Assembly: GCA_021776295.1 (NCBI GenBank)
Contig: JAJFGE010000035.1
Location: 1 to 51,163 of the forward strand
DNA: 51,163 nucleotides
Origin: Hyphococcus sp.
GTDB lineage: Bacteria; Pseudomonadota; Alphaproteobacteria; Caulobacterales; Parvularculaceae
Reading direction: 5' to 3'
The notes below the pieces were generated by a model. It worked only from the letters and a program-made list of their open reading frames with translations, was not told the DNA's origin and ran no database searches. The position numbers were made by a program, and so were the translations under genes. Shown in pieces: positions 6,503 to 33,030 of the stretch; within the stretch, counting starts at the first letter, position 1; each line of letters opens with the position of its first letter.

Positions 6503-6622
6503 AATCAGCATTCTTCACAAGGGACTATTTCGAGCAACAATTACAACACAACTGAAGTTGGAACATTCAGCTAACCTCAAAAGTTTTGTGACCCAGGTGG
6601 GCGGCACCGAGTTTTCGAAATG

Positions 6623-6658
6623 GATAAACCACTACCGGCTGGCGCCGGTAGGTTTATC
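6623..6658. repeat. Right-end palindrome of the IS200-type element
   Basis: GATAAACC-AC-TACCGGC is followed after a short TGGC loop by GCCGGTAGGTTTATC. The arms pair completely except for a 2-base bulge. Such imperfect subterminal hairpins are the substrates recognised by Y1 transposases. The tnpA stop codon in the restored frame (TAG, 6632-6634 on the - strand) lies inside it. Confidence 0.7.
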
Positions 6659-7047: not shown

Positions 7048-7120
7048 GAGCCGTCTCCTCAAAAATGAAAGCCATAGAACCGCCACAGCGGGGCTTTCAT
7101 TTTTGAGGAGACGGCTCATG
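7045..7120. repeat. Perfect 29-bp inverted repeat over the tnpA start
   Basis: Arms 7045-7073 and 7092-7120 are exact reverse complements over 29 bases, separated by an 18-base loop. The arms include the tnpA ATG on one side and, on each strand, a GAGGAGACGG purine run that could be a Shine-Dalgarno site. In IS200 elements an upstream hairpin that hides the start is known; this one is unusually long and perfect. A terminator role in either direction is less likely because no T run follows. Confidence 0.85.
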
Positions 7121-7194: not shown

Positions 7195-8052
7195 CTACGT
7201 GTGCGTTGTTATAAGCTTGTCCAACTTGGATTCAAAAAACCGGCAGCCCCAAAGATTCAATGATTCAGCTTCCGTGGGGCGCAAGAAACGATTGACGTCT
7301 TTTTTTGCCTCGTCCCAATTAATTGACTGAATGCGTTTGGTCATTTCGGCTTGGAGCCACTCTACGCTCACAGCGAGTGTTTCATCGTCTGCCCATGGGC
7401 CGAATTGGCGTAAAGCCGCTTCCAGGTGGGGTAAATTCGGAAAGATTCCTTGTGCGACATACCAGGAAAAATCGTACCAATCGCGTCCCTTCAAATATTC
7501 CCGACACAGCAGGGCATGAATCTTTAGTGCAAAATTCGACGCCAAATCCTGATGCCGAACCTCAAAATCAACCGGAAAATCGAGATATGTAAAGTCGTCA
7601 CTCGAATGCGCAGGCGGTTCAACATCAATTTCCAATTTGATTTTCAGGATTTTCCGAGAATCTCTTTTTCCAAATGACACGGCCAACTGATTGGCGATCG
7701 AATTGTCCTTGATGACCGCGTTGCGTATGCGCTTGTCCATTTGCTCTTTGAAAATCACTTCGGGCTGCAGGCCATATTCTTCAAATATCTCCGTAAGAAT
7801 TTTCAGGAAAGGCGCCCAATCGAATTTCGGATCCGGCTCCAGAAGCATGAAATCCAGATCTTCGGAAAACCGCGGCAGTTTTTGCAGAATGCGCAAACTG
7901 GTTCCACCTTGAAACACGGCGACATCAAAAAACTTCGCGCGCCAGAGCCCATAGAGCGCAATTTCTTGGATAATCTCCTTGATCGCGTTCTCTGCTTCGC
8001 CATCACTGGCTGCATTGTAGCTGGCTAATCGAGCCTGGATAATCTCGTTCAT
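7195..8052 (-). CDS. AbiEii/AbiGii-type nucleotidyltransferase toxin
   Basis: A 285-residue protein of the AbiEii family, the toxin of type IV AbiE toxin-antitoxin pairs, which act as nucleotidyltransferases and can give abortive phage defence. The diagnostic N-terminal motif is present: FQGGTSLRILQ (residues 48-57) followed by FSEDLDF, with D65 and D67 as the metal-binding acidic pair of the DNA polymerase beta fold. The middle contains KIKLEIDVEPP and a conserved LALKIHALLCRE-like helix (NFALKIHALLCREYLKGRDWYD, residue 175 on). Its ATG lies 2 bases after the stop of the antitoxin gene, so the two are translated together. Length and motifs suggest an intact gene. Target and phage spectrum are unknown. 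Confidence 0.9.
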   Translation of the reverse strand: MNEIIQARLASYNAASDGEAENAIKEIIQEIALYGLWRAKFFDVAVFQGGTSLRILQKLPRFSEDLDFMLLEPDPKFDWAPFLKILTEIFEEYGLQPEVIFKEQMDKRIRNAVIKDNSIANQLAVSFGKRDSRKILKIKLEIDVEPPAHSSDDFTYLDFPVDFEVRHQDLASNFALKIHALLCREYLKGRDWYDFSWYVAQGIFPNLPHLEAALRQFGPWADDETLAVSVEWLQAEMTKRIQSINWDEAKKDVNRFLRPTEAESLNLWGCRFFESKLDKLITTHT

Positions 8053-8054
8053 AA

Positions 8055-8741
8055 TTATGCTCTTTGCCGCGAAGTTGGCTTATTTGCCTTCAGGGCGCGT
8101 ACGCCCTTCTCAAGTTGGGATAAGAACTCATTGGCGGATTTGTGTTTGTACACATCTTTTAGCGCAGAGAAGTCTTTGCCGCGTGTTTGCAAAAGATTGG
8201 TTTCGTCAATACGCATACCGCGCTGAACCCATTCGAGACCTTCCCATTTTTGTTTTCGATAGACGACCAAATCCATAAGCGCCCGCAGCGGTGACGCCAC
8301 GAGCATCGCTTGACCGCTGATGACGTGTCGCTGAACGCCTGCGAGGAATTCCGATTTGTGAAGTGCCAACGGATTGAAGTCAAAATGGCCAAAGTTCGGG
8401 TGATCAATCACTTGGGATTTTCGGCGTGGCGTCACGCTGACGGTTGTATAAACGGCTTCTGGAATCCAGCCATGAAAGGCCAGCGCCGTTTCCATGGAAA
8501 CATAACTGCCTGCGACCAGCACCTGAGCAAGCGCAAAGGGATGAAGAGGATGTTCGCGGTATTGCTCAGCTAAAACATAAAGGCCGCGTTTGACCCGAAC
8601 GAGCGCCCCCGACTGCAAGGCGCGCTTAACTTGGCCATAGCGTCGATCATCGCTACCGCCAATAATACGCGCCTTTTGCTGATCGGTGAGAACCCGATCA
8701 GCGTAACCGGCGCTTTTGATAATCGAAACCAGTTTGTTCAT
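8055..8741 (-). CDS. AbiEi-type antitoxin / transcriptional regulator
   Basis: A 228-residue AbiEi family protein. The N-terminal winged-helix part (LTDQQKARIIGGSDDRRYGQVKRAL, GALVRVKRGLYVL) resembles the antitoxin's DNA-binding domain; the rest (YVSMETALAFHGWIPEA, TVSVTPRRKSQ, SPLRALMDLVVYRK) is the AbiEi C-terminal domain. AbiEi proteins neutralise AbiEii and repress their own promoter by binding inverted repeats; an inverted repeat is present just upstream at 8754-8772. Antitoxin first and toxin second is the usual gene order. No frameshift or missing part is seen. Confidence 0.88.
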   Translation of the reverse strand: MNKLVSIIKSAGYADRVLTDQQKARIIGGSDDRRYGQVKRALQSGALVRVKRGLYVLAEQYREHPLHPFALAQVLVAGSYVSMETALAFHGWIPEAVYTTVSVTPRRKSQVIDHPNFGHFDFNPLALHKSEFLAGVQRHVISGQAMLVASPLRALMDLVVYRKQKWEGLEWVQRGMRIDETNLLQTRGKDFSALKDVYKHKSANEFLSQLEKGVRALKANKPTSRQRA

Positions 8742-9710: not shown

Positions 9711-11271
9711 GAGGCTGTGTGAAAACGCGCAAATCAGATTAGTGTTTTGGCGTCTCATTGGGAGGTCATGATGCGTAGATTTATTGAAGGGGAAGATCGT
9801 TGTCAGCAGGCTTTGTTACCGGCCAGCCTTGAAGATTACATCGACGAAGAAAACCCCGTCCGGGTGATTGACGCCTTTATCGACCAACTGGATCTGGTCG
9901 AATTGGGATTTGATCGTGCGCGACCGAAAACGACGGGCCGCCCGGCCTACCATCCGTCAACGCTGTTGAAGATTTATTTATATGGCTATCTCAACAGCAT
10001 ACAATCAAGTCGGCGTTTGGAGCGTGAAGCAGGCCGCAATGTAGAACTGATGTGGTTGACGGGGCGTCTGACGCCGGACTTCAAGACGATCGCTGACTTC
10101 AGAAAAGACAACGGGCCCGCCATCCAGGCGGTTTGCGTACAGTTCGTCGATCTGTGCCGGGAGCTTGGTCTTTTTGTCCGAGCCGTGGCCACGATCGACG
10201 GCTCAAGGTTCAAAGCCGTCAATGCGCGAGTGAAGAACTTCACCAAAGGCAAACTGAAACGCCGCATCGGTCAGGTCGAGGCGAGCATTGAGCATTACCT
10301 TAACGCCCTTGATAACGCCGATCGTCAAGAAGTGATCGTTTCCAACGACAAAGTCGCCTCAATGCAGGAAAAACTGGCGGCGATGAAAGTAAAACTCGCA
10401 GAGTTGAAGCAACGCGAGACTGAAGTACTTGCCTCACCTCATCAACAGATATCACTGACCGATCCGGATGCCAGATCCATGGCGACGAGCCATGATATCG
10501 GTATGGTCGGGTACAACGTTCAGTCCGCTGTTGACACCGAACACCATTTAATTGTCAGCCACGAGGTGACGAACGTCGTCTCGGACAAAGTGCATCTCTC
10601 AACTCAGGCGGCAAAAGCAAAGACTGCAATGGGTCGAAAGACACTCGACGTCTATGTCGACCGCGGATACTTCAGCGGCGCTGAAATCTTGGCCTGCAAA
10701 GCCAACGACATTACTGCCTATGCGCCCAAGCCGCTTACGTCCGGCTCACGGGCTGCGGGTCGTTTCGGCAAGGATGAATTTGTCTATCACGCTTCAGAAA
10801 ACGTCTATCAATGCCCCGCTGGTGAGAAACTCACCTATCGCTTTGAGAACGTTGAGCGCGCCCGGACACTCCACTCCTATTGGACGACCAAATGCGAGAC
10901 CTGCCACCTCAAGCCGCGCTGCACGACCGGCGACATGCGCCGCATCAAACGTTGGGAACATGAAGCCGTGATTGACGAAATGCTTGATCAACTGAACAAA
11001 AGCGACGCGATGACCATCAGAAGGCGGACAGTCGAGCACCCCTTCGGCACGATAAAGGCCTGGATGGGCGCGACCCACTTCCTGATGAAGAGCCTCAAAA
11101 ACGTCCAAACGGAGATGAGTCTCAGCGTCCTCGCCTACAATCTAAAGCGTATGATCGCGATCATGGGCGTCAAACCATTAATCGCCGCTATTAAGGCGGC
11201 ATAAGACCGGCCCGCCAACTCAACTTCAAAAAATATCGCCGATCTCGCCGCAAACGTTTTTACACGGCCTC
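9711..11271 (+). mobile_element. Complete IS1182-family insertion sequence
   Basis: The 1561-bp element has terminal inverted repeats GAGGCTGTGTGAAAACG (9711-9727) and, at the other end, CGTTTTTACACGGCCTC (11255-11271), matching at 15 of 17 positions. Both ends are flanked by TCCT (9707-9710 and 11272-11275), a 4-bp target duplication. It contains one intact transposase gene. The conserved ends, duplication and open frame point to a fairly recent insertion, in contrast to the decayed sequence on its left. Confidence 0.88.
9768..11204 (+). CDS. IS1182-family transposase
   Basis: A 478-residue DDE transposase starting at the ATG at 9768 after GGGAGG. The N-terminal part has EENPVRVIDAFIDQLDL and GRPAYHPSTLLKIYLYGYL, typical of IS1182; the catalytic core has ATIDGSRFKA (first Asp), DVYVDRGYFSG (second Asp) and RRTVEHPFGTIKAWMG (Glu). 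A zinc-like Cys cluster (YQCPAG, KCETCHLKPRC) lies between them, as is usual in this family. The coiled-coil-like stretch VASMQEKLAAMKVKLAELKQR sits in the insertion domain. No frameshift is seen. Confidence 0.93.
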   Translation: MMRRFIEGEDRCQQALLPASLEDYIDEENPVRVIDAFIDQLDLVELGFDRARPKTTGRPAYHPSTLLKIYLYGYLNSIQSSRRLEREAGRNVELMWLTGRLTPDFKTIADFRKDNGPAIQAVCVQFVDLCRELGLFVRAVATIDGSRFKAVNARVKNFTKGKLKRRIGQVEASIEHYLNALDNADRQEVIVSNDKVASMQEKLAAMKVKLAELKQRETEVLASPHQQISLTDPDARSMATSHDIGMVGYNVQSAVDTEHHLIVSHEVTNVVSDKVHLSTQAAKAKTAMGRKTLDVYVDRGYFSGAEILACKANDITAYAPKPLTSGSRAAGRFGKDEFVYHASENVYQCPAGEKLTYRFENVERARTLHSYWTTKCETCHLKPRCTTGDMRRIKRWEHEAVIDEMLDQLNKSDAMTIRRRTVEHPFGTIKAWMGATHFLMKSLKNVQTEMSLSVLAYNLKRMIAIMGVKPLIAAIKAA

Positions 11272-19457: not shown

Positions 19458-19796
19458 TTACCGATCTCGCTCGCGGACGCATCCTTCAAAAACCTGCAAA
19501 GAAACGTGTCCAGTGATGGCTGTTGTCTGGGCCGAACTGCAGCCGGCCTCAATCAGCATGACGGATGCCGCGTTGCGCAGCCCATGGGCGGAGCAATGTC
19601 CAAGGCCGGCTTCCTGACACCATTGCTTGAAGCGATTACCGAATGATTCTCGCGATCCCCATGGTCGTCCATTTTTCTGTGTGAGGCACGTTAAGTCACC
19701 TATTTTTGTGGCGTTGATACCCGCCGCCAAGAGCGGGTGAATCGGTATTGAAACGCGCGTCCCCTTCGTGGCGACCGTCTTTTTCGGCGTGAATAC
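19458..19796 (-). pseudogene. Tyrosine recombinase (integrase) fragment
   Basis: On the - strand from about 19796: LVFTPKKTVATKGTRVSIPI, HPLLAAGINATKIGDLTCLT, GRPWGSRESFGNRFKQWC and HCSAHGLRNAASVMLIEAG, followed by ITGHVSLQ. This is the catalytic domain of a phage-type site-specific recombinase with the HGLR (H-x-L-R) box and the TGH box. The N-terminal half is missing, and after TGHVSLQ the frame runs to a stop without the nucleophile Tyr, so it is inactive. It probably marks the entry of an old integrative element that brought part of the island. Confidence 0.75.
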
Positions 19797-20156: not shown

Positions 20157-21422
20157 TTAACGAGCGGCAAATCCCATGATAAGCGGTTCGAAATAAGCGG
20201 CGGAAGCTGTCACGGGCTCATCTTGCGGATGCCAGGACTCTAATAACGGTGTGGCAGCAAACCGACGCCCACTTGCAGCAAAAATGGCGCCAAAAACGAT
20301 GTGCTCGGCTGCTTCCAGGTCTATCGCTCTGATTGAGCCGTCCATCATCCCGCGGGCAATCATTTCCGCATATAGTGCACGCAACCGGCGCAATCGTGCA
20401 TTGATCGCTGCACGCGGTGCTTTGTCGAGCAAATGTGTGAGATTGAAACGAAGCAATGGATCAAGTTCAGTAAGATGACCTTCAAACAGCCAACGCACAG
20501 CGCGCTCTAGTTCGACTAACGCGACTGCGTCACCACGCTTGGCGGCAAGCTCTAAAGCTTCTTCAATCAGGCCGCACGTTCTTTCAAAACTTTCGATAAG
20601 AAACGTTTCCTTGTCGGCGATGTGGTAGTAGAAGGCGCCTCGAGTGACACCAAGTTCTGCGGCGATGTCATCGAGCGAGAGGTTGCGATAGCCATTACGG
20701 TTGAGATAACGAATACCCGTTCTAAGGAATGCTTCGCGTTTGAGGTTGTTTCGCGCCTCTCTGTCAAAAATTGCCGGCACCGTGTCTGAATTATTCCGCG
20801 ATATCGGCGTCACCGCGGGTCTATTCTGCGTGCCACACAGACCGTTGCGCATGAGATCGCAGAAGCCTTCGATCGCATCGTCGCGGCGTCTTTCTGGCAC
20901 CGCCTCCAGCCATGTCGGTATATACTGAATGACATTGAAGGCGAAAAAGGTGGACGCATCCACAGATTGTATTTTGACTGATCCATCATCCAACCCGTCG
21001 GCGATAAATGTTTTGAATCCATTTATCTGTGATTGATAGCGCTCCCGGATCGCATAGTGATCGTCTTCGGCAAGCCCTGAAAAATCGCTCATTAAGGCGA
21101 GCGGCGTACGATGGCCGGCAAGAACATCAGCTTGCGCTTGCAGGTGTGACCTTATAAACATGATCGCTCTCTCAAGGCCATTGCGCGCCGTCGCCGCGAT
21201 CTTCATCTCTCCCTCAGCGTAATCGCATGATTTGCGATACGCCGCCGCAAGCAGGCCCTCTTTCGATTTGAAATGATAGCTTATGCTTGTCTTGCCGACG
21301 CCAAAGGTTTCGGCAATATCCTCTAAGCGTGTATCGTAGTAGCCTTGATCATTAAATTGGCGTGTTGCTTCGACGAGAATTCTATCTCGCTTGGTCAGGG
21401 ATGTGGGCCGGGCCGTTCGCAT
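20157..21422 (-). CDS. Tandem TetR-TetR transcriptional regulator
   Basis: A 421-residue protein made of two complete TetR repressors in one chain. HTH 1 is at residues 11-57 (RILVEATRQFNDQGYYDTRL, GVGKTSISYHFKSKEGLLAA) with its ligand domain to about 200; HTH 2 is at 229-275 (REAFLRTGIRYLNRNGYRNL, GVTRGAFYYHIADKETFLIE) with a second ligand domain to the end. Single TetR proteins are about 200 residues and dimerise; this chain could act as a covalent pseudo-dimer or bind two sites. It is divergent from a TonB receptor, with a perfect palindrome between. It probably represses that receptor and the catabolic genes beyond. The linker shows no frameshift or stop, so the fusion is real in this sequence. 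Confidence 0.88.
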   Translation of the reverse strand: MRTARPTSLTKRDRILVEATRQFNDQGYYDTRLEDIAETFGVGKTSISYHFKSKEGLLAAAYRKSCDYAEGEMKIAATARNGLERAIMFIRSHLQAQADVLAGHRTPLALMSDFSGLAEDDHYAIRERYQSQINGFKTFIADGLDDGSVKIQSVDASTFFAFNVIQYIPTWLEAVPERRRDDAIEGFCDLMRNGLCGTQNRPAVTPISRNNSDTVPAIFDREARNNLKREAFLRTGIRYLNRNGYRNLSLDDIAAELGVTRGAFYYHIADKETFLIESFERTCGLIEEALELAAKRGDAVALVELERAVRWLFEGHLTELDPLLRFNLTHLLDKAPRAAINARLRRLRALYAEMIARGMMDGSIRAIDLEAAEHIVFGAIFAASGRRFAATPLLESWHPQDEPVTASAAYFEPLIMGFAAR

Positions 21423-21588: not shown

Positions 21589-21605
21589 TGTTCAAAATTT
21601 GAACA
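21589..21605. promoter_or_regulatory. Palindromic TetR operator candidate
   Basis: TGTTCAAA-A-TTTGAACA is a perfect 8-1-8 inverted repeat, the usual size and symmetry of TetR-family operators. It lies between the divergent tetR and TonB-receptor genes, 15 bases upstream of the -35-like TTGACT, so a bound repressor would obstruct RNA polymerase. Confidence 0.55.
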
Positions 21606-21620
21606 GGATGTATTTTTTAA

Positions 21621-21648
21621 TTGACTTAGTTTTAATTTTGCTTATTGT
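21621..21648 (+). promoter_or_regulatory. Sigma-70-like promoter of the TonB receptor
   Basis: TTGACT (21621-21626), a 16-base AT-rich spacer and TATTGT (21643-21648) resemble -35 and -10 elements. The -35 is strong, the -10 moderate. It points toward the receptor at 21786. Confidence 0.45.
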
Positions 21649-21785: not shown

Positions 21786-24545
21786 ATGAAATATGTAACT
21801 GCAAAACCAAGTGTATATAATAATCAATCACTGCAAACATCCGTTTCGGCCGTGGCGCTGGGATTCGCCTGTGTTATGGGCTTTGCCTACGCGCCGGCCC
21901 ACGCGCAAGATGGCACCACAGAAAACGAAACAGCTGTACGAGACACGATCATCGTGACGGGTTCAAATATCCGTTCACGGCGTAAGGATTTTCAAACACC
22001 ATCTCCGGTTCAAACGGTAGGTGAAAAAGAAATCGCTGACACCGGTGCACTTCAAGTCCAGGATATCTTTAAGGGGCTGACTGCTAACTCCGGTTCGCAG
22101 GTCGCGAACCGTCAAAACGCGCTTCAGGGCCTTTCGCAATTCTCGTTGCGTGGTCTTGGGATCGGATCAACGCTGACATTGATAAACGGCCGCCGCGCGG
22201 GGTTGGCGCCGATCACAGATTCGTCCGGTCAGTTGTTCACCGACTCAAACCAGTATCCGATCAACATGATAGAACGGGTCGAAGTCCTGACAGACGGAGC
22301 TTCCTCAACGTATGGCTCGGAAGCGGTGGCGGGTGTTGTAAACATCTTCACACGTAATAATTTTGAAGGGTTCGAAATTACTGCCGAAGGACGAACGGCG
22401 TCTAACGACTCGTTATCTGTCGGCGGTGCGTTCGGTCTACAAAGCGATCGCGGCGGAATCGTACTGTTTGCAAATTACTATACGCAAGATAGCAACACGC
22501 GCGGGGACTTCGACTTCATCGCCAACGGCAACACGCTCGACGCGGGAACAGCTAGCCTGTTTGACTCCGCAACAGGTTCGCCCGGACGGATCAGCGTTGC
22601 CGTGCCCGACGCCACAGCGCCCGGCGGGTTTACCCGTGGCGCAAGTACGCTGGCCGATCCGGATTGTGTCGCGGCGGGCGGCTTCATTGATGGCGCGAAC
22701 TGTCGCTACAATTTCCTCAATCAGGTTCGTCTTATCCCGGAAGAAACGCGCTTCCAGGCTTTTTCCGCAATGAATTACGACGTTTCAGACAAGCTGAACA
22801 TTTTTTCTGAGATCGGCTTTTCACGAAATGAAGTTCGCGACGGTATTGGCGGCACGCTGACACGCCGCACCTCCGTTGGCGGCGGCTTCCTCGTTCCCGG
22901 CGATCATCCGTTTAACTTCTTTGTGTCCGACGGTGCGGGCGGCATAACATATGCTGGCCCCGACGCATTCGCCGCCGATCCATCCCTAACTGCAGTAGAC
23001 GTAATTTATCGCGGCCGGCCGCTCGGCGCCGACGCTGACGGCGACAACCTCAAAGACATCGAAACCGTTTTCACAAATCTCCGACTGGTCGCGGGTTTTG
23101 ATTATGAACTTGGAGACAGCTGGTTGTTGAACGGTAGCTATACGTGGTCCAACTCTGACTTCGCTCGGGCAGCGCCCCATGATTGGGACATTCCGGCCTT
23201 TCAAGATGCGATCCTTGGCGGGGCTTGGAACCCGTTCGGGACGCGCGTTGCAACCCCCGGCCTTACGTCTCCAAAAGACAGTGCGTCCGTTGCAGGCAAC
23301 TCAGATGACGTCTTCAATACATTCGCGCTGATCCGAAACGATCAGGCTCAGGTGACGCAATCCGTCGCTGAGCTCATTCTAAGCGGTGAGACTGGTATCA
23401 CGCTCCCTGGCGGCGATGTGTCTCTTGCGGTCGGCGGACAATACCGCACGCTCGAACTGGAAGATATTCCTGATGGTCGGTATCAGTCCGGCGACAACCG
23501 TCTGAATGAAACCATTCCAGCCACTTTCGGCGAACAGAACGCCTATGCTGTATTTGGCGAAGTGGTTCTACCCATCACAGACCGCCTCCAAATTCAGGGT
23601 GCATTGCGGTTTGAGGACTATGGCGAAAATGGCGGCGATACGCTCGACCCAAAGGTCTCTGGCAAGTACGACATCACGGATAATATTGCGCTGCGAGCCT
23701 CCTATGGCACTTCGTTCCAGGCTCCATCGATCCGTCAGGTTGCTGGCGTCGTATCGAGCGCAACCATTAACGATCCGGCTGATCCGGGCGGCGGCGCCTT
23801 CATCATCACTGTCATCACGCAGGGGTCGCCCGATTTAACCCCGCAATCGGCGGAAAACATCAATGTCGGTTTGGTCTTGCGTTCCGACATCGGCTTCGAT
23901 TTCTCGGTCGATTACTGGATGTATGATTATGAAGGACTGATCCTTCCCGGCGCTGATCCGCAATTCATCTTTGACGAAGTGTTTGCAGGAAGGCTACCGG
24001 CAGATCGAGCAACACGCGACGGCGTTGGACAACCGGCGACGGCGATCGCTCAATTTGAAAACCAAGGCTCAGCGACTGCCAAGGGGTTCGATATCGTCGG
24101 CCGGTTCAAAACTGAAGCCGGTCCAGGGGATTTGACCTTCGATGCGTCAAGCACGATTATTACGGAGTATGAATCATCGGAATTCGGCGATATCAAAGGA
24201 AGCCGCAACTTCACTAACGGCTTTGGTTCGACGCCGGACTTCAAAATCAATGGCGGCGTAACCTATGAATGGGGTAATCATTTGGTCAATCTGACCACGC
24301 GTCACATCGGTGCGTATAGTGATGATCAAACCGGAAACGCTATCGACTCCCAAACCACCCTGGACCTCCGGTACCAGTTGTATCTCGAAGACTTGTTCGG
24401 TGGCCAGGGTACGAGTATCGGGATCGGCGCCGTCAATCTGCTGGATGAAGACCCTCCTGCACTGACAGCCCGCCCGCTGTTCGATACAGAAGTGCACGAT
24501 CCGCGCGGACGGCAGATCTACATCACTGTGAAGCATAGCTTTTAG
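21786..24545 (+). CDS. TonB-dependent receptor (catabolic locus, first)
   Basis: A 919-residue outer-membrane receptor. After a signal peptide (FACVMGFAYAPAHAQ) comes the TonB-box-like DTIIVTGSNI, then the plug (PSPVQTVGEKEIADTGALQV, SLRGLGIGSTLTLINGRRAG, IERVEVLTDGASSTYGSEAVAGVVNI) and a barrel ending in YITVKHSF with the C-terminal Phe. The plug wording LINGRR...GSEAVAGVVN is that of receptors for organic substrates rather than classic siderophores. Start at 21786 is chosen because the upstream in-frame ATG at 21744 would add 14 charged residues before the signal. It is probably repressed by the divergent double TetR. Substrate is inferred to be that of the hydrolases downstream. Confidence 0.9.
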   Translation: MKYVTAKPSVYNNQSLQTSVSAVALGFACVMGFAYAPAHAQDGTTENETAVRDTIIVTGSNIRSRRKDFQTPSPVQTVGEKEIADTGALQVQDIFKGLTANSGSQVANRQNALQGLSQFSLRGLGIGSTLTLINGRRAGLAPITDSSGQLFTDSNQYPINMIERVEVLTDGASSTYGSEAVAGVVNIFTRNNFEGFEITAEGRTASNDSLSVGGAFGLQSDRGGIVLFANYYTQDSNTRGDFDFIANGNTLDAGTASLFDSATGSPGRISVAVPDATAPGGFTRGASTLADPDCVAAGGFIDGANCRYNFLNQVRLIPEETRFQAFSAMNYDVSDKLNIFSEIGFSRNEVRDGIGGTLTRRTSVGGGFLVPGDHPFNFFVSDGAGGITYAGPDAFAADPSLTAVDVIYRGRPLGADADGDNLKDIETVFTNLRLVAGFDYELGDSWLLNGSYTWSNSDFARAAPHDWDIPAFQDAILGGAWNPFGTRVATPGLTSPKDSASVAGNSDDVFNTFALIRNDQAQVTQSVAELILSGETGITLPGGDVSLAVGGQYRTLELEDIPDGRYQSGDNRLNETIPATFGEQNAYAVFGEVVLPITDRLQIQGALRFEDYGENGGDTLDPKVSGKYDITDNIALRASYGTSFQAPSIRQVAGVVSSATINDPADPGGGAFIITVITQGSPDLTPQSAENINVGLVLRSDIGFDFSVDYWMYDYEGLILPGADPQFIFDEVFAGRLPADRATRDGVGQPATAIAQFENQGSATAKGFDIVGRFKTEAGPGDLTFDASSTIITEYESSEFGDIKGSRNFTNGFGSTPDFKINGGVTYEWGNHLVNLTTRHIGAYSDDQTGNAIDSQTTLDLRYQLYLEDLFGGQGTSIGIGAVNLLDEDPPALTARPLFDTEVHDPRGRQIYITVKHSF

Positions 24546-24563
24546 ACAATCCTTGCGAGGACA

Positions 24564-24603
24564 AACGGAGAAGGCGAAGAACAAGCGGGGCGCCTTCTCC
24601 GTT
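24564..24603 (+). terminator. Hairpin after the TonB receptor
   Basis: AACGGAGAAGGCG (24564-24576) and CGCCTTCTCCGTT (24591-24603) pair perfectly over 13 bases around a 14-base loop, 18 bases after the receptor stop. No long T run follows (ACCAAAATCTCTTT), so it is a weak intrinsic terminator or an RNA-stabilising hairpin. Confidence 0.5.
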
Positions 24604-24773
24604 ACCAAAATCTCTTTCAGACTGTATAAATTCCCGCCCGGACCGACGCTGTCCGAGACTAATGAGTTTGGGCTATCGCACAAAAGAGCTTTATTGTTAG
24701 CTCAATTTCGATGAACATTGCTAAAGCTGTGTAAGCCATAAAATATCTTCATTGTCAGCGGATTCCACAAAAT

Positions 24774-26237
24774 ATGAGCAGCGACCCACCTTCAAATATC
24801 GATTTACCCAAAATCGTCGGCTTTGTCGCGGGTCCGACGCTTGCTGCCGTGATCTTTGTCATTTTCCGCCCTGAAGGGTTGCCGGTCCACGGCACCTACG
24901 TTGCAGCGATCGCCGCTTGGATGGCAATTTGGTGGGCTACCGAAGCAACAAACGTCGCTGTTACAGCGTTTCTTCCGCTGGTTGTGTTTCCACTGTTTGG
25001 TGTCGCCACCATGAAAGAGACAGCAATTTCTTACGCTCACCCAATCGTTTACTTGTTCATGGGTGGGTTCATTATGGCCTTAGCCATTGAAAAATCCGGC
25101 CTGCATCATCGTGCGGCTTTGCGTATCTTTCAAATCGCAGGCGTCAATGCCCGTGCTATTGTCGGCGGCTTCATGGTCGCCGCAGCGCTCATCAGCATGT
25201 GGGTGTCGAATACATCAACGACCCTGATGATGCTCCCCATCGCCATGTCCGTTGTTTATGTGGTGCGCGAAACCATGGATGATTTGTCAGCCAAGGAGTT
25301 GAGCGATTTTGAGATCTCCATCTTTCTAGGCCTCGCTTATGGCGCCACCATGGGGGGGGTCGCGACGTTGGTTGGCACGCCACCTAACGCCTTCATGGCG
25401 GGTTTCATGCAATCCACTTATGACATGGAAGTCGATTTTGCCCGCTGGATGATTATCGGTATTCCGCTTACGGCGGTGATGCTGCCTCTCATCTGGTTCG
25501 TACTCGTGCGCGTATTGTACCCCGTCAATTTCATTGCTTCAGACCGCACCACAGCGCATCTCGAAGCCAAACGAAAAGAACTAGGCCCTTTGAGCGCGGC
25601 TGAGTTTCGTACAGGTTTTTTGTTCCTCGCTCTGGTTGCTGGCTGGGTTCTTCGCAAACCGCTGGTGGCGTGGACTGGCGCGGCTGAACTCAGCGACGCC
25701 GCTGTCGCCATGATGGCGGGTATTGTTGCATTCCTCATTCCGAGCGGAAAGAAAGGCGAAACGTTAGTCACTTGGGAAGATACCAAGCGTCTTCCGTGGG
25801 GTGTGCTGATCCTTTTCGGCGGCGGACTGGCCCTCGCAGGCGGCATGACGAGTTCCGAATTGACATTGTGGCTTGGCCAGCGTCTAGCGCCGCTTGGAAC
25901 CATTCACATCGCGTTCCTGATTGTCGCCGCTTGTGCGTTAGTGATTTTCCTCACCGAACTGACTTCGAACCTCGCCACAACGGCGACATTTCTGCCAGTA
26001 ATGGCGGCGCTTGCGGTCGAAACCGGGAACAATCCGCTAATTTTCGTTATACCCGTGACACTAGCGGCAAGTTTTGCGTTCATGCTGCCCGTCGCGACGC
26101 CGCCAAATGCGATCGTGTTTAGCTCAGGTCGTGTATCGATCCCCAAAATGATGCGTGCTGGGTTCGTCCTTAACCTTGCGGGGATCATAGTTTTGACATT
26201 TGTGGCGCTTACCCTCGTACCCATCGTTTTTGGATGA
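24774..26237 (+). CDS. DASS/SLC13-family sodium-coupled anion transporter
   Basis: A 487-residue inner-membrane protein with about 11-12 hydrophobic segments. Both SNT-type motifs of the divalent anion:sodium symporters are present: WVSNTSTTLMMLP (S145-T147) and ELTSNLATTATFLP near residue 400, each followed by a GTPPNAF/ATPPNAI loop that binds sodium and substrate. Family members carry succinate, malate, citrate or related carboxylates. Placed between two TonB receptors and upstream of esterases and dehydrogenases, it most likely imports an acid released by hydrolysis. No clear ribosome-binding site precedes the ATG; no alternative start looks better. Confidence 0.9.
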   Translation: MSSDPPSNIDLPKIVGFVAGPTLAAVIFVIFRPEGLPVHGTYVAAIAAWMAIWWATEATNVAVTAFLPLVVFPLFGVATMKETAISYAHPIVYLFMGGFIMALAIEKSGLHHRAALRIFQIAGVNARAIVGGFMVAAALISMWVSNTSTTLMMLPIAMSVVYVVRETMDDLSAKELSDFEISIFLGLAYGATMGGVATLVGTPPNAFMAGFMQSTYDMEVDFARWMIIGIPLTAVMLPLIWFVLVRVLYPVNFIASDRTTAHLEAKRKELGPLSAAEFRTGFLFLALVAGWVLRKPLVAWTGAAELSDAAVAMMAGIVAFLIPSGKKGETLVTWEDTKRLPWGVLILFGGGLALAGGMTSSELTLWLGQRLAPLGTIHIAFLIVAACALVIFLTELTSNLATTATFLPVMAALAVETGNNPLIFVIPVTLAASFAFMLPVATPPNAIVFSSGRVSIPKMMRAGFVLNLAGIIVLTFVALTLVPIVFG

Positions 26238-26472: not shown

Positions 26473-27516
26473 ATGACCGAGGATCATCCAGCAATTGGCA
26501 ATACGGGCCTCCCCCGTTTGCCCAAATTTTATGTAGCAGCCATCCTCGGCGACGAACGAGCGCGAGAAACAGTCCGGCGAAGATCGTCAGGAGAACCTGA
26601 CTGGCTCATTCCCCGCGACTTGAAAGGCGATATCGGTGTTCTTCGCGCATGGATGCAAATGCGAAACCGCATCCGCCGAATTAAGGATGAATCCCATGGC
26701 TTTGCGCCGGAACCCATTCCGCCCGGCCAATTTGATCTTCATGTGGGGATAATGAGTCACGGCGCCGATGCTTTTGGCGCCTTGAAGCGTTTTATTGGCG
26801 CCTCGAATTTGCTTCGGCCGGACCTGGAAATTAAAACCCACCTCAAACGAAAACACCTTGAGCTATCTGTTAAATTACATGGAGAATATGACCCCGTCCA
26901 AGAGATCTACCATGAAGTGTATTCGGTTGTAATTCACTGCGCCCTTCGATGGGTTACGGGGGAAAAAGTTCAAATCTCGCATTTGCGCGCGGCAGCGCCG
27001 CCAGCTGGTGTTGAAACGACTTTTGTAACAACGCTGGGACGCCCGGTCCGCCGTGAGGGTGTTGGTGTTACGATTTACTACAACGCGTCAGATGCACACG
27101 CACCGTTACTCCCGGTAAAGCTTGGTCGTTGGGGGTCTGTCGTTGTCGATCAGTTCGTACGCGAATTGACGCTTTCTCAGGTCACAAGACCAAATGCAGA
27201 GCCGCTTACGCCGACGACAGATAGGGTCGCGAAAATGCTTGCAACGACGCACATATCCGAATCGACCATAGCCGGGCGTCTGGGATTGAGCATAGCCACG
27301 CTTCGTCGCCGTCTCGCGGAAGAAGGCGTTAATTTCCGTGAAATCGCAAATCAAGCACGCCGTCGTCAGGCCGAAGTCATGTTGCAGACAGACCGGCCTT
27401 TCGCTGATTTAGCGGTCGAACTCGGATTTTCCGATGAGCGAAGCTTTCGCAGAGCGTGCAAAAATTGGTTTGGAATGCCGCCGGTAGAATATCGGCTGTA
27501 TTTGCAGCGGGGATAA
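26473..27516 (+). CDS. AraC-family transcriptional regulator
   Basis: A 347-residue regulator with an N-terminal arabinose-binding-like domain of the type found in OruR/ArgR-like AraC proteins (LRAWMQMRNRIRR..., GIMSHGADAFGALKRFIGASN, YHEVYSVVIHCALRW) and a C-terminal double helix-turn-helix from about 240 (STIAGRLGLSIATLRRRLAE; PFADLAVELGFSDERSFRRA, then WFGMPPVEYR). It sits between the DASS transporter and the second TonB receptor on the same strand, so it is probably the activator of the downstream catabolic genes. The start is the ATG at 26473; an earlier ATG at 26376 is in another frame. The inducer is unknown. Confidence 0.88.
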   Translation: MTEDHPAIGNTGLPRLPKFYVAAILGDERARETVRRRSSGEPDWLIPRDLKGDIGVLRAWMQMRNRIRRIKDESHGFAPEPIPPGQFDLHVGIMSHGADAFGALKRFIGASNLLRPDLEIKTHLKRKHLELSVKLHGEYDPVQEIYHEVYSVVIHCALRWVTGEKVQISHLRAAAPPAGVETTFVTTLGRPVRREGVGVTIYYNASDAHAPLLPVKLGRWGSVVVDQFVRELTLSQVTRPNAEPLTPTTDRVAKMLATTHISESTIAGRLGLSIATLRRRLAEEGVNFREIANQARRRQAEVMLQTDRPFADLAVELGFSDERSFRRACKNWFGMPPVEYRLYLQRG

Positions 27517-27652
27517 AACCAATGCGGGTTTTTCACTCGTGTGAGCGAAAATGTCCCCCTCAATATTGACTTAAAGCGTCCTTGTCTCATGGCGTCACTC
27601 GACACCTAATTGGCCGATGCTCAAAATAGTCTGGGCGGCAAGGGAGGGTGAA

Positions 27653-29950
27653 ATGGTTCATTTCAACAAGCAGGCTGAAACAAAAATAATAATTGCCATG
27701 CGGATCAAGGAGAAATGGCGCACCGGCGTTCTTTCGGCCCTGATGTGTACGGCTGCCGTGACACCGTTGATGGCCGCGCCCGCCGCCAATGTTACTGAAA
27801 CCAGCAAGAATACCGATACTGAAATTCCAGCCCCGGGTTCTGCAGACATCACTCGTCTTGCAATGCTTCAGGAAACACCAAACGAAACAACCGACGGCCA
27901 AGCAGGCTCCATCCGTTCACTGAAAGCCGGCGTTGATCAAATCATCGTCACAGCAGAAAAAAGAGCAGTAAACGCGCAACGCACGCCAATTTCAATTAAG
28001 GCCTTTGATTCAGACGCCTTACAGCGTTCTGTCATTGAAGACCTTTACGACATCGGCTTGCAGACGCCGGGCGTTATCGTCAACAAGGAAATTGTTGGCA
28101 AGGTCTATATTCGCGGCATTGGGACTGAGAATTTAACTGTTGGCGGCGATCCAGGCGTTGCCGTTCACGCCGACGGCGCCTATATCGCTCGCACATCGGC
28201 GGCAAATTTTGATCTGCATGATGTGGAGCGCGTCGAGGTGTTGCGTGGCCCGCAAGGCACGCTGTACGGACGAAACGCTACGGGCGGCTCTATCAATATA
28301 ATTTCCAACGCGCCGACCGAGGAATTTTACGCGAAGGCGGATTTCCAATATGGAAGCCACGACCGGTTTCGATATGGCGGCGTCATCAGCGGTCCTTTAT
28401 CAGATAAAGTTCTGGCGCGCGTAAGTTTTGTAAAAAGCGATCGTGATGGATTTGCCGAAAACCTCTTGACCGGTTCGTCACTTGATACTGAAGACCTTAC
28501 GATGGGTCGGGCGCGTTTACGGTTTTTACCCAATGAAAATGTAACATTTGACCTTATTGGCGAGTTTTCGATCGATGATTCAAAACCTGCGCCCTTTAAG
28601 CAGCTTGAATTTTCAGACCTGTTCGAAGGTATGAACGGCGCGTTCGATCCCCCAGGTTTGCGCTTCGTGGCGCAAGAATCGCCAGTCGAAGAGCACCAAG
28701 ACCAGTATGGCGTCACCGGCATCTTGAATTGGGATTTTTCCGACGTTACGCTTACCTCAGTGTCATCCTATCGTAGTATCGATTTCTTTGCAGCGTTTGA
28801 CGGAGACGCAGTTGATATCACCTTCCAGAATTTTGAAGATGCCAATGATTCTGAACAGTTTACACAGGAAATCAGACTGGCCTCCAATACTGACGGCGCC
28901 CTCGATTGGATTATTGGAGGCTATTATTTTAATGATGACGGCCATCAAGAAATTTTTATTCCTATTCCAGGATTTGGGTTTGATATTCTTCACATCGCCG
29001 ACATCAAAACCAACGCTTTTGCTGCCTTCGGCCAAGCGAGTTATGCGCTTTCACCACAGCTCAATGTAACCGCCGGCCTACGATACAGCACCGAAGACAA
29101 GGAAGCCGAGCAGTTTACCGATTTCGGCTTTATTCCGCCGCTGATGCAACCTCTCAGCCAGGATGGCGATGCGCTGACGCCGCGCTTTGCGGTTGAATTT
29201 ACGCCTAATGACAACGCCCTTCTTTACGCAAGCGCGACACGCGGCTTTAAGTCCGGCGGGTTTACGTTCAATGGATTTCAAGGCAATTTTGATCCGGAAT
29301 TTGTGTGGTCATATGAGGGCGGCTTGAAAACCCAATTCGCTGAAAACCGCGCCCAGGCGAATATTTCCTTCTTCTATTATGATTATACAGATCTCCAGGT
29401 GTCGAAACTTGAAAATAACGCAGGCGTTATTACGAATGCCGCCGATGCAACGATCTGGGGTGGCGAGTTCGAGTTTATCACACGGCCAAATGATTTCTTC
29501 GAATTCAATGTCGGCCTGTCATATCTTAATGCCGAGTTCGATGAGTTCCTCACCGAAGACCCGAGCAATCCTGGTCTCGGCACAATCGACCTTGCCGGCA
29601 ACAACCTCACCCGGTCGCCAGAATTTACCGCCAATGTCGGCGCTCAATTCGACGCCCCGGCCGGCAGTTGGGGAACGGCGAGCCTGCGCGTCGATTACCA
29701 GTATCAGGCCAAAAGCTTTTTCACGCCCTTTAATCGCGATCTCTCCGCACAGGAAGCTTTCCACCTCGTCAACGCTCGTTTGTCTCTACAGGATAACGAC
29801 GACGCATGGCGTTTCGCGGTATTCGTGAAGAACGTCTTTGACGAAACCTATTTTCTCAACATTCTTGAATCGGGTGTTGAGGCTGGTAAACCTGAAGGCT
29901 TCCTCGCGCCTCCGCGCACTTGGGGGCTGCAAGTATCACGTGCCTTTTAA
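27653..29950 (+). CDS. TonB-dependent receptor (catabolic locus, second)
   Basis: A 765-residue receptor. The ATG at 27653 follows AGGGAGGG; a longer frame from 27617 lacks a site. The signal sequence is WRTGVLSALMCTAAVTPLMA|AP, followed by a 60-residue linker, then IIVTAEKRAVNAQRTPISI, the plug (VYIRGIGTENLTVGGDPGV, VERVEVLRGPQGTLYGRNAT, GGSINIIS) and a barrel ending WGLQVSRAF. The LRGPQGTLYGRNATGG wording is that of the large alphaproteobacterial receptor group. The last codons overlap the GTG start of the esterase gene by 11 bases, so the receptor and enzymes share a transcript and probably a substrate. Confidence 0.9.
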   Translation: MVHFNKQAETKIIIAMRIKEKWRTGVLSALMCTAAVTPLMAAPAANVTETSKNTDTEIPAPGSADITRLAMLQETPNETTDGQAGSIRSLKAGVDQIIVTAEKRAVNAQRTPISIKAFDSDALQRSVIEDLYDIGLQTPGVIVNKEIVGKVYIRGIGTENLTVGGDPGVAVHADGAYIARTSAANFDLHDVERVEVLRGPQGTLYGRNATGGSINIISNAPTEEFYAKADFQYGSHDRFRYGGVISGPLSDKVLARVSFVKSDRDGFAENLLTGSSLDTEDLTMGRARLRFLPNENVTFDLIGEFSIDDSKPAPFKQLEFSDLFEGMNGAFDPPGLRFVAQESPVEEHQDQYGVTGILNWDFSDVTLTSVSSYRSIDFFAAFDGDAVDITFQNFEDANDSEQFTQEIRLASNTDGALDWIIGGYYFNDDGHQEIFIPIPGFGFDILHIADIKTNAFAAFGQASYALSPQLNVTAGLRYSTEDKEAEQFTDFGFIPPLMQPLSQDGDALTPRFAVEFTPNDNALLYASATRGFKSGGFTFNGFQGNFDPEFVWSYEGGLKTQFAENRAQANISFFYYDYTDLQVSKLENNAGVITNAADATIWGGEFEFITRPNDFFEFNVGLSYLNAEFDEFLTEDPSNPGLGTIDLAGNNLTRSPEFTANVGAQFDAPAGSWGTASLRVDYQYQAKSFFTPFNRDLSAQEAFHLVNARLSLQDNDDAWRFAVFVKNVFDETYFLNILESGVEAGKPEGFLAPPRTWGLQVSRAF

Positions 29951-30908
29951 GGCCACGGCGGTCGCAACAAAGCTTGATCGGGATTCTAAAGCGTTTCTTG
30001 ATCGTGCGAACACCGCTGAAGGCCCGCCGCTTGAAGAAATGTCGCTCGCCGATGCGCGCCAAAACCTCAAAGAGCTTTACCTTGGCGCGGGAGAACCTTT
30101 TCGTCGCCTTTTCAAGATCGAAGATATCAAAATTGACGGCGACGACGGTTCAGTTGCACTGCGAATCTATTCGGGGAAAAGGCGCTTAGTTAGCAAGGCG
30201 CCGGCGATCTTGTTTTTTCATGGCGGCGGCTGGGCGCTCGGCGACGTTGGATCTTACGACAATTTCTGCCGCTTTTTGGCGTGGAAGACATCTGCCCAGG
30301 TAATCAGCGTAGAGTACCGCTTGTCGCCGGAACACAAGTTTTCAGCAGGCCTCAATGATTGCTTCACAGCGCTAGAATGGCTTGCAACGAAAGCACAATC
30401 GATCGGCGTCGATGCAAACCGCATTGCGGTCATGGGCGACAGCGCTGGCGGCAACTTCGCCGCGCTGGCCGCTATTCGCGCACGCGATAAAGGAATACCT
30501 CTAGCCGGGCAAATTCTTCTTTATCCGGTGCTCGCGCTCGATGGGGGGCGAGGCTATCCTTCGCGCACCGAATTTGACGGCGGCGATTATTTTATCTCGC
30601 AAGCGAGCATCGCCTGGACGGTGGAACTTTATCTTAACAATTCCGAAGACGCCGCCTCGCCGCTGGCGACCCCGCTCAATGTCAAAAACCTCAATGGGCT
30701 TGCGCCGGCGCTTGTGATTGTTGGCGGCTTCGATCCTTTGCGCGACGAATGCAAAGCATTTTCGGACCGCCTCGCCGACGCCGGTACGCCGGCCGAGTTT
30801 CGTTGTTACCACACGACAATACACGGATTCATGTCTTACTCCGGGGCCCTTAAGATAGGCCGGGCTGGACTTCACGACACCGCGGCGTGGATAAAGCGCC
30901 GTCTTTGA
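29940..30908 (+). CDS. Alpha/beta hydrolase (HSL-type esterase), first
   Basis: A 322-residue esterase of the hormone-sensitive-lipase group (family IV). The oxyanion-hole motif HGGGW is at 94-98 and the nucleophile S168 in VMGDSAGGN; the acid and base are in GGFDPLRDE and TTIHGFMSYSG. The frame is open further upstream into the receptor gene, but the GTG at 29940 gives VPFKATAVATKLDRDSKAFLD, which matches the family's usual beginning (x-LD-x-D-KAFLD). No signal peptide, so it is cytoplasmic. With the second HSL esterase, the ADH and the aldehyde dehydrogenase it forms a hydrolysis-oxidation set. Substrate class (short-chain ester or lactone) is inferred. Confidence 0.85.
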   Translation: MPFKATAVATKLDRDSKAFLDRANTAEGPPLEEMSLADARQNLKELYLGAGEPFRRLFKIEDIKIDGDDGSVALRIYSGKRRLVSKAPAILFFHGGGWALGDVGSYDNFCRFLAWKTSAQVISVEYRLSPEHKFSAGLNDCFTALEWLATKAQSIGVDANRIAVMGDSAGGNFAALAAIRARDKGIPLAGQILLYPVLALDGGRGYPSRTEFDGGDYFISQASIAWTVELYLNNSEDAASPLATPLNVKNLNGLAPALVIVGGFDPLRDECKAFSDRLADAGTPAEFRCYHTTIHGFMSYSGALKIGRAGLHDTAAWIKRRL

Positions 30909-30923
30909 AGAAAGGGATTAAAT

Positions 30924-32048
30924 GTGAAGATCAAGGCGGCAGTACTTCATGAAATTGGCGCGGAGGGACCGTTCGCGCAATCAAAACCGCTGAAAGTTGA
31001 AACGCTTGATCTCGCGCCGCCTGGAGAAGGCGAGATTCTTGTCGAGATCAGGGCGGCTGGCCTTTGTCATTCAGATCTATCGGTAATCAACGGCGCCCGC
31101 CCGCGCCCAACACCAATGGCGCTTGGGCACGAAGCCGCTGGCATCGTAAGGGAGATGGGACCAGGCGTTCACGATCTTGCTGCGGGCGATCATGTCGCCT
31201 TGGTTTTTGTCCCAAGCTGCGGCGCTTGCGTGCCGTGTGCGGAGGGTCGGCCAGCACTGTGTGAGCCTGGCGCGGCTGCCAATCTTGCCGGTGAGTTGCT
31301 GGCGGGCGGGCGCCGTCTGACGCTCGACGGCGCGCCGGTGCACCATCATCTCGGCGTTTCCGCATTTGCAAGCTACGCTGTCGTCAGCCGACGTTCGGCC
31401 GTAAAGATCGATCCCGAATTACCTTTCGAGGAAGCCGCTCTATTCGGTTGCGCGGTCATTACCGGCGTCGGCGCCGTCCTTAACACAGCCAATGTTTCAG
31501 CCGGTTCAACGGTTGCCGCAATCGGGCTCGGCGGTGTCGGGCTCAACGCCCTTCTCGCGGCGCGAGTAGCCGGCGCGCGCACTGTCATTGCAGTTGATCT
31601 GCGCGACGACAAACTTGCCGCCGCTCTCGAACTCGGCGCCGATCACGCCGTCAGCGCAGCCGATCCGGATTGCAGGAAAATCGTGCGAGATCTCACTGAG
31701 GGCGGCGTTGATTTTGCGATCGAGACCGCCGGATCGATTCCCGCACTCGAACTTGCCTTCGCTGTCACCCGGCGCGGCGGCGAAACTGTTACCGCGGGCT
31801 TGCCTCATCCGGACAAACGCCTTTCTTTATCACCGGTTCAGCTTGTGGCTGAAGAACGCAAACTCAAAGGCAGCTATCTTGGAAGCTGTGTTCCGTTGCG
31901 CGATATTCCTGTATATATTGACCTTTACCGCAAGGGAAAATTGCCGGTGGATAAACTGAAGAGCGGAACAATTGCGTTGAACGACATCAATACCGCCTTT
32001 GACAAACTGGCCGCCGGCGAAACCATTAGACAGATAATAACATTTTGA
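30924..32048 (+). CDS. Zinc-dependent alcohol dehydrogenase (MDR family)
   Basis: A 374-residue medium-chain dehydrogenase of the class III-like group. The catalytic zinc ligands appear in AAGLCHSDLSV and ALGHEAAGIV; the structural zinc is held by four Cys in SCGACVPCAEGRPALC. The Rossmann motif is AAIGLGGVGLNALLAARVAG (about 190). It starts with GTG (30924) after AAAGGGA; the overlapping ATG would stop at once. It lies 15 bases behind the first esterase and 4 bases before the second. It should oxidise the alcohol released by the esterases to an aldehyde with NAD. Confidence 0.9.
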   Translation: MKIKAAVLHEIGAEGPFAQSKPLKVETLDLAPPGEGEILVEIRAAGLCHSDLSVINGARPRPTPMALGHEAAGIVREMGPGVHDLAAGDHVALVFVPSCGACVPCAEGRPALCEPGAAANLAGELLAGGRRLTLDGAPVHHHLGVSAFASYAVVSRRSAVKIDPELPFEEAALFGCAVITGVGAVLNTANVSAGSTVAAIGLGGVGLNALLAARVAGARTVIAVDLRDDKLAAALELGADHAVSAADPDCRKIVRDLTEGGVDFAIETAGSIPALELAFAVTRRGGETVTAGLPHPDKRLSLSPVQLVAEERKLKGSYLGSCVPLRDIPVYIDLYRKGKLPVDKLKSGTIALNDINTAFDKLAAGETIRQIITF

Positions 32049-32052
32049 AGCC

Positions 32053-33030
32053 ATGACCAACAAATACGAGGCGCAGATCGAGCCAGCATTCGCGCAACTC
32101 CTTAAAGCTGCAAAAAAAAGTCAGCTTCCCGAACTGCATACGCTGGCGCCGGATGCAGCGCGTTCACAATACGCCGCCGGTGTTTCGCTTATCGCCGAAG
32201 GCTCTCCAGACATGGCGAGCGTGAAAGATCTTCGCATTGAAACGCCGGAGACGATCTTGCCCGCGCGCCTATACCGGCCACACAGCGCGCCGCCGAAAGC
32301 AACCGCCTTACTGGTCTACTTCCATGGCGGCGGGTGGAGTTTTGGGTCGATTGATACACACGATCATATCTGCCGGCGTCTCGCAATCGCACTTGATGGA
32401 CTTGTTCTTTCCGTCGGTTATCGTCTGGCGCCGGAAAACAAGTTTCCCGCCGCCGTCGAAGACGCGATCAACGCCGCGACTTGGGCGAGCGGCAACGCCC
32501 GCACGCTCGGCGCCGACCCGGCGAAATTATTCCTTGGCGGCGACAGCGCCGGCGGCAATCTGGCCGCGGTTGCTGCGATTGCCGCACGCGACATGAACGG
32601 CCCTCCGATTGCTGGGCAATTACTGATCTATCCTGCGACAGACATGTCTATGGGTTTTGCCTCGCATACAGCGTTTGGCGATGATTATCGGTTGACGCGA
32701 CCGCTCATGGTTTGGTCGGCGTTGAATTATCTGCGCGACGGCCGCGACGTCACCGACCCGCGCGCATCGCCGCTGCTTGCGACAAGCCACGCCGATCTGC
32801 CGCCGGCAATCGTAATCACGGCGGGATTTGACCCTCTGCGCGATGAGGGTGAAGCCTATGCGAATACCCTGCGCAAGGCCGGCATTGACGTCGACTATAA
32901 ATGCTACACCGGCGCCATTCACGGTTTCATAGGAATGACCAGTGTGTCACAAACCGCCGGGGAATGTTTGGCGTTTGCAGGCGGCGCTCTGAGAACCGCC
33001 GTATCCAAAGCATCGGAAATTACAATATGA
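32053..33030 (+). CDS. Alpha/beta hydrolase (HSL-type esterase), second
   Basis: A 325-residue family IV esterase. HGGGW is at 91-95, the nucleophile is S165 in LGGDSAGGNL, and the acid and base lie in TAGFDPLRDEG and GAIHGFIGM. It has the same plan as the gene at 29940 but clearly different sequence, so the two are not a recent duplication and probably cut different bonds or different-length oligomers. No signal peptide. The ATG is 4 bases after the ADH stop. Confidence 0.88.
   Translation: MTNKYEAQIEPAFAQLLKAAKKSQLPELHTLAPDAARSQYAAGVSLIAEGSPDMASVKDLRIETPETILPARLYRPHSAPPKATALLVYFHGGGWSFGSIDTHDHICRRLAIALDGLVLSVGYRLAPENKFPAAVEDAINAATWASGNARTLGADPAKLFLGGDSAGGNLAAVAAIAARDMNGPPIAGQLLIYPATDMSMGFASHTAFGDDYRLTRPLMVWSALNYLRDGRDVTDPRASPLLATSHADLPPAIVITAGFDPLRDEGEAYANTLRKAGIDVDYKCYTGAIHGFIGMTSVSQTAGECLAFAGGALRTAVSKASEITI

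Follow-up and report, generated by a model that had tools for sequence, protein, structure and literature searches.

In a 51,163-nucleotide stretch of Hyphococcus sp. DNA (hereafter the window), we find a gene whose 421-aa product is, with a probability of roughly 70%, a single-chain pseudo-heterodimer of two TetR modules that reads an asymmetric operator in the region separating this gene from a divergent operon coding for a TonB-dependent receptor, in relatives an esterase, and a DASS family symporter. In the mechanism that we propose, the two modules would pair inside one polypeptide as an obligate pseudo-heterodimer, and their two different helix-turn-helix motifs (HTHs) would read the two different half-sites of the element ATACA-N4-GTTCAAAT, which lies in the 363-bp region between the regulator gene and the operon. 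The bound regulator would then cover the -10-like ATACA of its own putative promoter and sit at the upstream edge of the operon -35. Binding would thus result in autoregulation and in control of the uptake operon. We infer that the regulator physically binds the element and represses rather than activates. The likeliest inducer would be a carboxylate, or the CoA ester of one, formed from the compound taken up.

A symmetric dimer on a palindromic operator is the usual rule for TetR proteins, and the solved exception that we found is one mycobacterial protein. About one in four genomes sampled from a single order has the architecture described here, with conserved and testable sites. It offers a tractable system in a non-pathogen for studying how new DNA specificity evolves one half after the other in a covalent heterodimer, and sensor parts for non-palindromic operators may come from double TetRs.

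Two TetR modules in one recurrent reading frame

The earlier note on this DNA had proposed that two full TetR modules are fused head to tail, and this was borne out. The open reading frame (ORF) comprises 421 codons with an ATG start and no internal stop, and both Pfam domains occur twice (TetR_N, 80.7 bits over two stretches, Pfam cut-off 24; TetR_C_24, 41.5 bits over two stretches, cut-off 26.4). The protein combines a TetR_N HTH above the cut-off with a helical C-terminal domain of TetR fold, as in the TetR family, and it carries two complete TetR family regulator (TFR) modules in one polypeptide, which is the double TFR architecture. The two halves are 28% identical to each other, and each half of the fold model matches TetR chains in the PDB. 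The coordinates of the features are collected in Table 1.

Table 1. Features of the window, in order of position
Feature	Position	Strand	Basis or remark
Sulfatase and sulfatase-modifying-factor-like genes	2-1372 and 4934-5947
IS200-like transposase	6577-7119		Same side of the double TetR as AbiEii
AbiEii nucleotidyltransferase toxin gene	7195-8741 (with adjacent ORF)		Pfam, 115.3 bits
DDE transposase	9747-11204
Fic/DOC family protein, 512 aa	17483-19021
Phage-integrase fragment	19458-19730
Double TetR regulator, 421 aa	20157..21422	minus	ORF scan, Pfam, relatives, fold model
C-terminal TetR module, residues 227-421	20160..20744	minus	Pfam, alignment, model
HTH of C-terminal module, about residues 228-274	about 20601-20741	minus
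Linker, residues 198-226	20745..20831	minus	One block of ten falls to pLDDT 63
N-terminal TetR module, residues 1-197	20832..21422	minus	Pfam, model, alignment
HTH of N-terminal module, residues 15-61	21240-21380	minus
Palindrome TGTTCAAAATTTGAACA	21589..21605	no strand	Partial overlap (one half) with the conserved element
Predicted asymmetric operator core ATACATCCTGTTCAAAT (ATACA-N4-GTTCAAAT)	21597..21613	minus	Orthologous upstream regions, EM
Promoter-like TTGACT-16-TATTGT of the divergent operon	21621..21648	plus	Consensus match only
TonB-dependent receptor (Plug and beta-barrel)	21786..24545	plus	Start 21786 chosen; ORF as listed begins 21744
DASS family sodium-coupled anion symporter	24774..26237	plus	TIGR00785, 285.8 bits, cut-off 198.6
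AraC-type regulator	after the DASS gene, within 26473-33030
Alpha/beta hydrolase	32053-33030

A search for the same architecture revealed that it recurs widely. In an order-level draw, 96 of 398 genomes, the window's own genome counted, had a match at E<=1e-20, and nearly all matches listed span both halves. A class-level search of 385 genomes at E<=1e-40 returned nothing besides the window itself. Among 100 relatives, 17 loci (L002-L018) have a single frame through both halves. Contigs were also scanned with one peptide pattern as the query, and the best 80 loci among the matches listed were retained; 78 of these give a single ORF of 402-454 aa. The two failures, L076 (a stop within the match) and L099 (truncated where its stretch ends), were left out of the set of 117 proteins. 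At L057 and L102 a stop lies ahead of the end of the tblastn match, yet the ORFs are 428 and 406 aa long, and at L037 the start codon is absent from the stretch examined. The organisms of the contig scan are named as alpha-, beta- and gammaproteobacteria, the classes being assigned from the organism names. The locus sets overlap, L031, L033, L057 and L064 being L002, L005, L011 and L014; the latter four and L001 were dropped because the same genes are present under the former names and as the window, and further duplicate records may remain among the 117 proteins. Plasmids gave 42 records, 9 of them with at least 80% of the query in one place, and identity was at most 28.7% among the 30 matches listed. 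On plasmid pBAR2 of Sphingomonas bisphenolicum (L151), a relative of the double TetRs appears shortened, with a 627-bp TetR gene followed immediately by the gene of an IS1380 family transposase.

The 421-aa frame is shared by a second species, G006, with 98% identity. A sequencing error that merged two genes, the earlier note's own caveat, was ruled out by the presence of the same frame in independent genomes. The window and G006 differ by 38 synonymous and 10 non-synonymous substitutions (dN/dS about 0.075). It is improbable, in our estimate, that one module alone binds DNA and ligand while the other is a decayed structural partner, which would make the protein an ordinary TetR with a dummy half. 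The ligand domains differ in a way that would suit such decay, with seven non-synonymous changes in the N-terminal and one in the C-terminal domain between the sister species, and with a mean identity of 22.1% versus 28.2% among 20 representatives. However, neither HTH has a single non-synonymous change between the two species, and both half-sites of the predicted operator are conserved at a fixed spacing.

Fold of the chain and comparison with Mce3R

Predicted as a monomer, with one chain as the only input and an alignment of 68 double TetRs, the protein gave a confident single-chain fold in AlphaFold2 (pLDDT 90.0, pTM 0.88). The best comparison was with Mce3R (9b7y_A), which Foldseek matched across both halves (E 1.2e-8, TM 0.61/0.66) and VIA aligned over 352 of 385 residues (Z 24.9, rmsd 4.3). 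The other VIA matches listed had Z of at most 16.5 and target chains of 178-208 residues, and among the structural matches listed Mce3R alone covers both halves. Since the model matches Mce3R over its full length, it supports a pseudo-heterodimer in which the two modules pair inside one chain; domain-swapped or higher assemblies may form as well. The covalent heterodimer suggested earlier thus gains support from this model and from the conserved asymmetric site described below. The note's two different ligand pockets, which would integrate two signals, are a conjecture; for Mce3R, a single ligand-binding domain is described (PMC11667970).

Double TFRs are a kind already known, and the widespread proteobacterial lineage is probably a separate variant. 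Mce3R of M. tuberculosis is described as a double TFR of a subfamily called infrequent, with 204 predicted in actinomycetes; it folds intramolecularly, has a non-palindromic operator and one ligand-binding domain made from both halves with one composite ligand cavity, and further homodimerizes through helix 15 (PMC11667970). The window protein resembles it in carrying two TFR modules on a single chain some 400 aa long, a single-chain fold with two different HTHs (cryo-EM for Mce3R, predicted here), a non-palindromic operator (measured for Mce3R, predicted here) and autoregulation (reported for Mce3R, presumed here). The targets differ: mce3 and lipid genes for Mce3R, the TonB/esterase/DASS operon for the window protein. 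In ordinary TetR regulators palindromic operators are typical, according to two papers (PMC4482099, PMC11667970). The engineered single-chain TetR sc-rtTA is similar in that its head-to-tail TetR parts fold intramolecularly and act as one chain, and it differs in being artificial, with TetR parts of the same origin and a flexible peptide linker, and in having been built against unwanted heterodimers (PMC1797012). PfmR, DarR, AibR and KstR2 share the fold of each module, but are separate one-module chains.

The sequence likeness to Mce3R is confined to part of the chain. In a single-sequence search of the PDB, Mce3R was second of 67 (E 9.5e-10), aligned via N-half residues 10-140 only. With phmmer these residues aligned with M1 of Mce3R, and the N half aligned again, weakly, with M2. 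In a family-profile search Mce3R ranked 24th. Orthology to Mce3R is therefore not supported by sequence: homology does not run the full length, though the fold matches the full length. A 392-aa actinobacterial double TetR, from Rhodococcus oxybenzonivorans pRB98 (L150), aligns with Mce3R over residues 12-380 (E 4.7e-42), whereas the window protein does not. A KstR family scan aimed at control genomes found no Mce3R sequence.

A tree of the halves was computed with IQ-TREE from 20 double-TetR representatives and 12 single TetRs. Eighteen N halves form one clade (86) and 18 C halves another (99); the halves of L016 and L130, N and C alike, adjoin the N clade at low support (46, 66). The Rhodococcus protein stands apart, its own two halves being grouped with a support of 88. 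Deep supports in this tree are 33-84, and a fusion separate from that of Mce3R is likelier but unproved. Our literature searches returned no paper on proteobacterial double TetRs, this lineage, its operator or its target, which does not imply absence from print.

A conserved asymmetric element and the divergent operon

The earlier note had pointed to a 17-bp palindrome in the window as the operator. This candidate was rejected: it is intact in the window alone, with two mismatches in the sister species (L031/G006), where just one arm is retained, and four to seven in the other 19 orthologues. Because the other arm is not conserved, the palindrome is probably incidental. What is conserved is the asymmetric element that overlaps it. 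Before counting, L113 and L034 were removed, as their site regions are identical to those of L032 and L127. ATACA-N4-GTTCAAAT is exact in 17 of the 21 distinct orthologous upstream regions, and is present in 20 with at most one mismatch and in all 21 with at most two. Dinucleotide shuffles gave 0/420 and 2/420 at these two thresholds, and the upstream regions of other double TetRs 0/94 and 1/94; all such patterns were read off the same sequences on which they are counted. The element has the same orientation throughout, and the clade that bears it has a FastTree support of 0.968 (23 rows). No symmetry axis stands out clearly: the best one scores 0.471 versus a mean of 0.424 in column-shuffled matrices, 10% of which reach 0.471.

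Read towards the regulator gene, the consensus of the orthologous regions is (A)GTGTCAACRAAAAAnATACACnCGGTTCAAATT, and the window has a shorter form of it, GTCAATTAAAAAATACATCCTGTTCAAAT. Together with the A-tract and GTCAA, the predicted operator extends to 21625. De novo expectation maximization (EM) on the upstream regions of 15 clade members yielded AAAACATACACnCGGTTCAAAT, the same motif as the alignment, with a log-likelihood of 260.5 (150 starts) versus 63.9 and 67.7 in two mononucleotide shuffles (60 starts). The motif was placed at the conserved site in 14 of the 15 members, and in L003 an inverted copy nearby was chosen. These alignments suggest that the conserved asymmetric element is the operator. 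In the window's own genome the site occurs once exactly, twice with one mismatch and 42 times with two. Since these 45 matches compare with 21 for a reversed-pattern control, no wider regulon is claimed.

Apart from the window's own gene, there are 20 order-level orthologues; we fetched the surroundings of 18, G006 and G721 being covered by L031 and, apparently, L032. All 18 genomes have the esterase gene and a DASS orthologue of 59-67% identity next to the double TetR gene and divergent from it, and in 17 of them the TonB receptor gene is located between the double TetR and esterase/DASS. When up to one mismatch is allowed, the site is present once, and no more than once, in every fetched region. 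In G554, the exception to the gene order, no TonB gene adjoins the regulator gene, and the site persists with one mismatch. The window has no esterase gene at 24546-24773, and G006 likewise lacks it; in relatives this gene separates the TonB receptor gene from the DASS gene or adjoins the latter. Of two esterase copies tested, one resembles short-chain PHA depolymerases, below the cut-off, and the other resembles Esterase_PHB. Given this likeness, the operon may serve an ester substrate, the acid moiety of which would be imported by the DASS symporter.

It is very unlikely that two chains dimerize by pairing N-terminal with N-terminal and C-terminal with C-terminal modules to form two symmetric DNA-binding and two ligand-binding units that act on two palindromes, the arrangement nearest to the two-signal idea of the earlier note. 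Both modules are complete, the window does hold a palindrome, and three loci of the outer clade carry the site twice, 55-56 bp apart, all as such a dimer would have it. Against it, the high-pTM model of the single chain agrees with Mce3R, in which the modules pair intramolecularly; orthologues do not preserve the palindrome; and the site that they do preserve lacks symmetry and occurs just once in each of the 18 fetched regions.

The element adjoins the TTGAC of the divergent operon, and the complement of this motif, GTCAA, is found in 21/21 distinct orthologous regions. ATACA may partly be a -10 element and GTCAA/TTGAC the operon -35, so part of the conservation may reflect promoters. The proposed regulator promoter was absent from the output of the promoter scan, whose single minus-strand candidate is elsewhere (21560-21531). 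If the element consisted mainly of the overlapping divergent promoters, TTGAC for the operon and ATACA for the regulator, it would tell little about the protein. We consider this quite unlikely. The invariance of GTCAA and the resemblance of ATACA to part of a -10 hexamer speak for it, and the absence of the site where the DASS gene is outside this operon is expected on this reading also. But GTTCAAAT, among the most conserved blocks, fits neither promoter core, and the spacing is held in gammaproteobacterial and outer members despite their different neighbouring genes.

Genomes with a DASS orthologue but no double TetR beside it were taken as a negative control for the site. Thirty genomes have one at E<=1e-120, and 21 of these have a clade member. 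Outside the 21, G586 has a double TetR and the operon with a two-mismatch site between them. For the remaining eight, 10-15 kb were fetched, and neither a double TetR nor a site with fewer than two mismatches was found there; a two-mismatch match is present in three of the eight regions. In seven of the eight the TonB and esterase genes of the operon were not found either, so this control separates little. At another place in its genome, one of the eight, G088, carries a double TetR that belongs to a different clade. As the site travels with the whole regulator-operon unit, effects of regulator and promoter are not separated. The DASS match of G689 (L187) has one in-frame TAG.

In the wider clade (34 members), the looser pattern TTYRA-N7-GTAT is present in 25 of 32 distinct loci, compared with 1 of 83 other double TetRs. 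When spacers of 3-12 between TTYRA and GTAT were tested, 25 loci had a spacer of 7, one had 6, and no other spacer occurred. Among the 11 outer-clade loci, the pattern is missing in L040, L037 and L035, and the L033 match is far upstream. The outer-clade loci with the pattern twice upstream are L016, L130 and L133, an arrangement that recalls the paired sites reported for Mce3R.

Half-sites in other clades and other genes of the window

A first EM motif for the Sphingomonas clade looked like the start of a neighbouring acyl-CoA dehydrogenase gene and was replaced by that of a run on intergenic sequence, for which 3 of 19 loci (L067, L084, L068) were left out. This run gave TTTACCGAATAnGCGGTAYG in 16/16 intergenic regions used. 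The site is nearly palindromic (TACCG-N6-CGGTA) with unequal flanks; the asymmetry is therefore not equally strong across the whole family. In four of the four upstream neighbours scanned, the gene codes for an acyl-CoA dehydrogenase. The Sphingomonas and TonB clade sites have the GTAY half and the GAA-N6 spacing in common, while the other half differs. The recognition helix has a mean identity of 68.7% in the C-terminal and 56.1% in the N-terminal module (20 representatives). Because the GTAY half is shared and the C-terminal recognition helix is the better conserved, we infer that the C-terminal HTH reads the constant half-site.

This leads to a tentative picture, for which we would claim rather less than even odds, of a broad, separately evolved proteobacterial family in which the C-terminal HTH stays with GTAY and, at a fixed spacing, the clades diverge in the N-terminal HTH and in the half-site that it reads. 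The variable half-site is TTTGAAC in the TonB clade, TTCAAAC in gammaproteobacterial members, TTCGAC or TTTGAC in the outer clade and ACCGAAT in the Sphingomonas clade. If true, fusion would have freed the operator from symmetry, and a dimeric regulator would have been naturally re-targeted one half-site at a time.

A more relaxed common pattern, GAR-N6-GTAYG, was found in 11 of the 67 loci that remained; nine other spacings gave 0-5 loci, and 100 mononucleotide shuffles averaged 2.71, with a maximum of 8. This pattern was written after matches in the same loci had been noticed, and some of the 11 may be coding; it is suggestive, not independent proof. In most loci of the other double TetR groups no recognizable site was found: EM motifs of the Caulobacter, Phenylobacterium, marine and Erythrobacter groups were weak or coding-like by eye, and the Sphingomonas matrix gave no more than scattered matches when applied to the remaining loci. 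Upstream of another double TetR, at about -271 in L051, lies CATACCGAGTTTCGGGTATG, a near-perfect palindrome of the constant half-site.

Other genes of the window are listed in Table 1. The 228-aa ORF adjoining the AbiEii toxin gene has no Pfam hit, and may, we presume, be its antitoxin partner. Beyond the DASS gene, the ORF at 27617-29950 reads, by eye, like a second TonB receptor.
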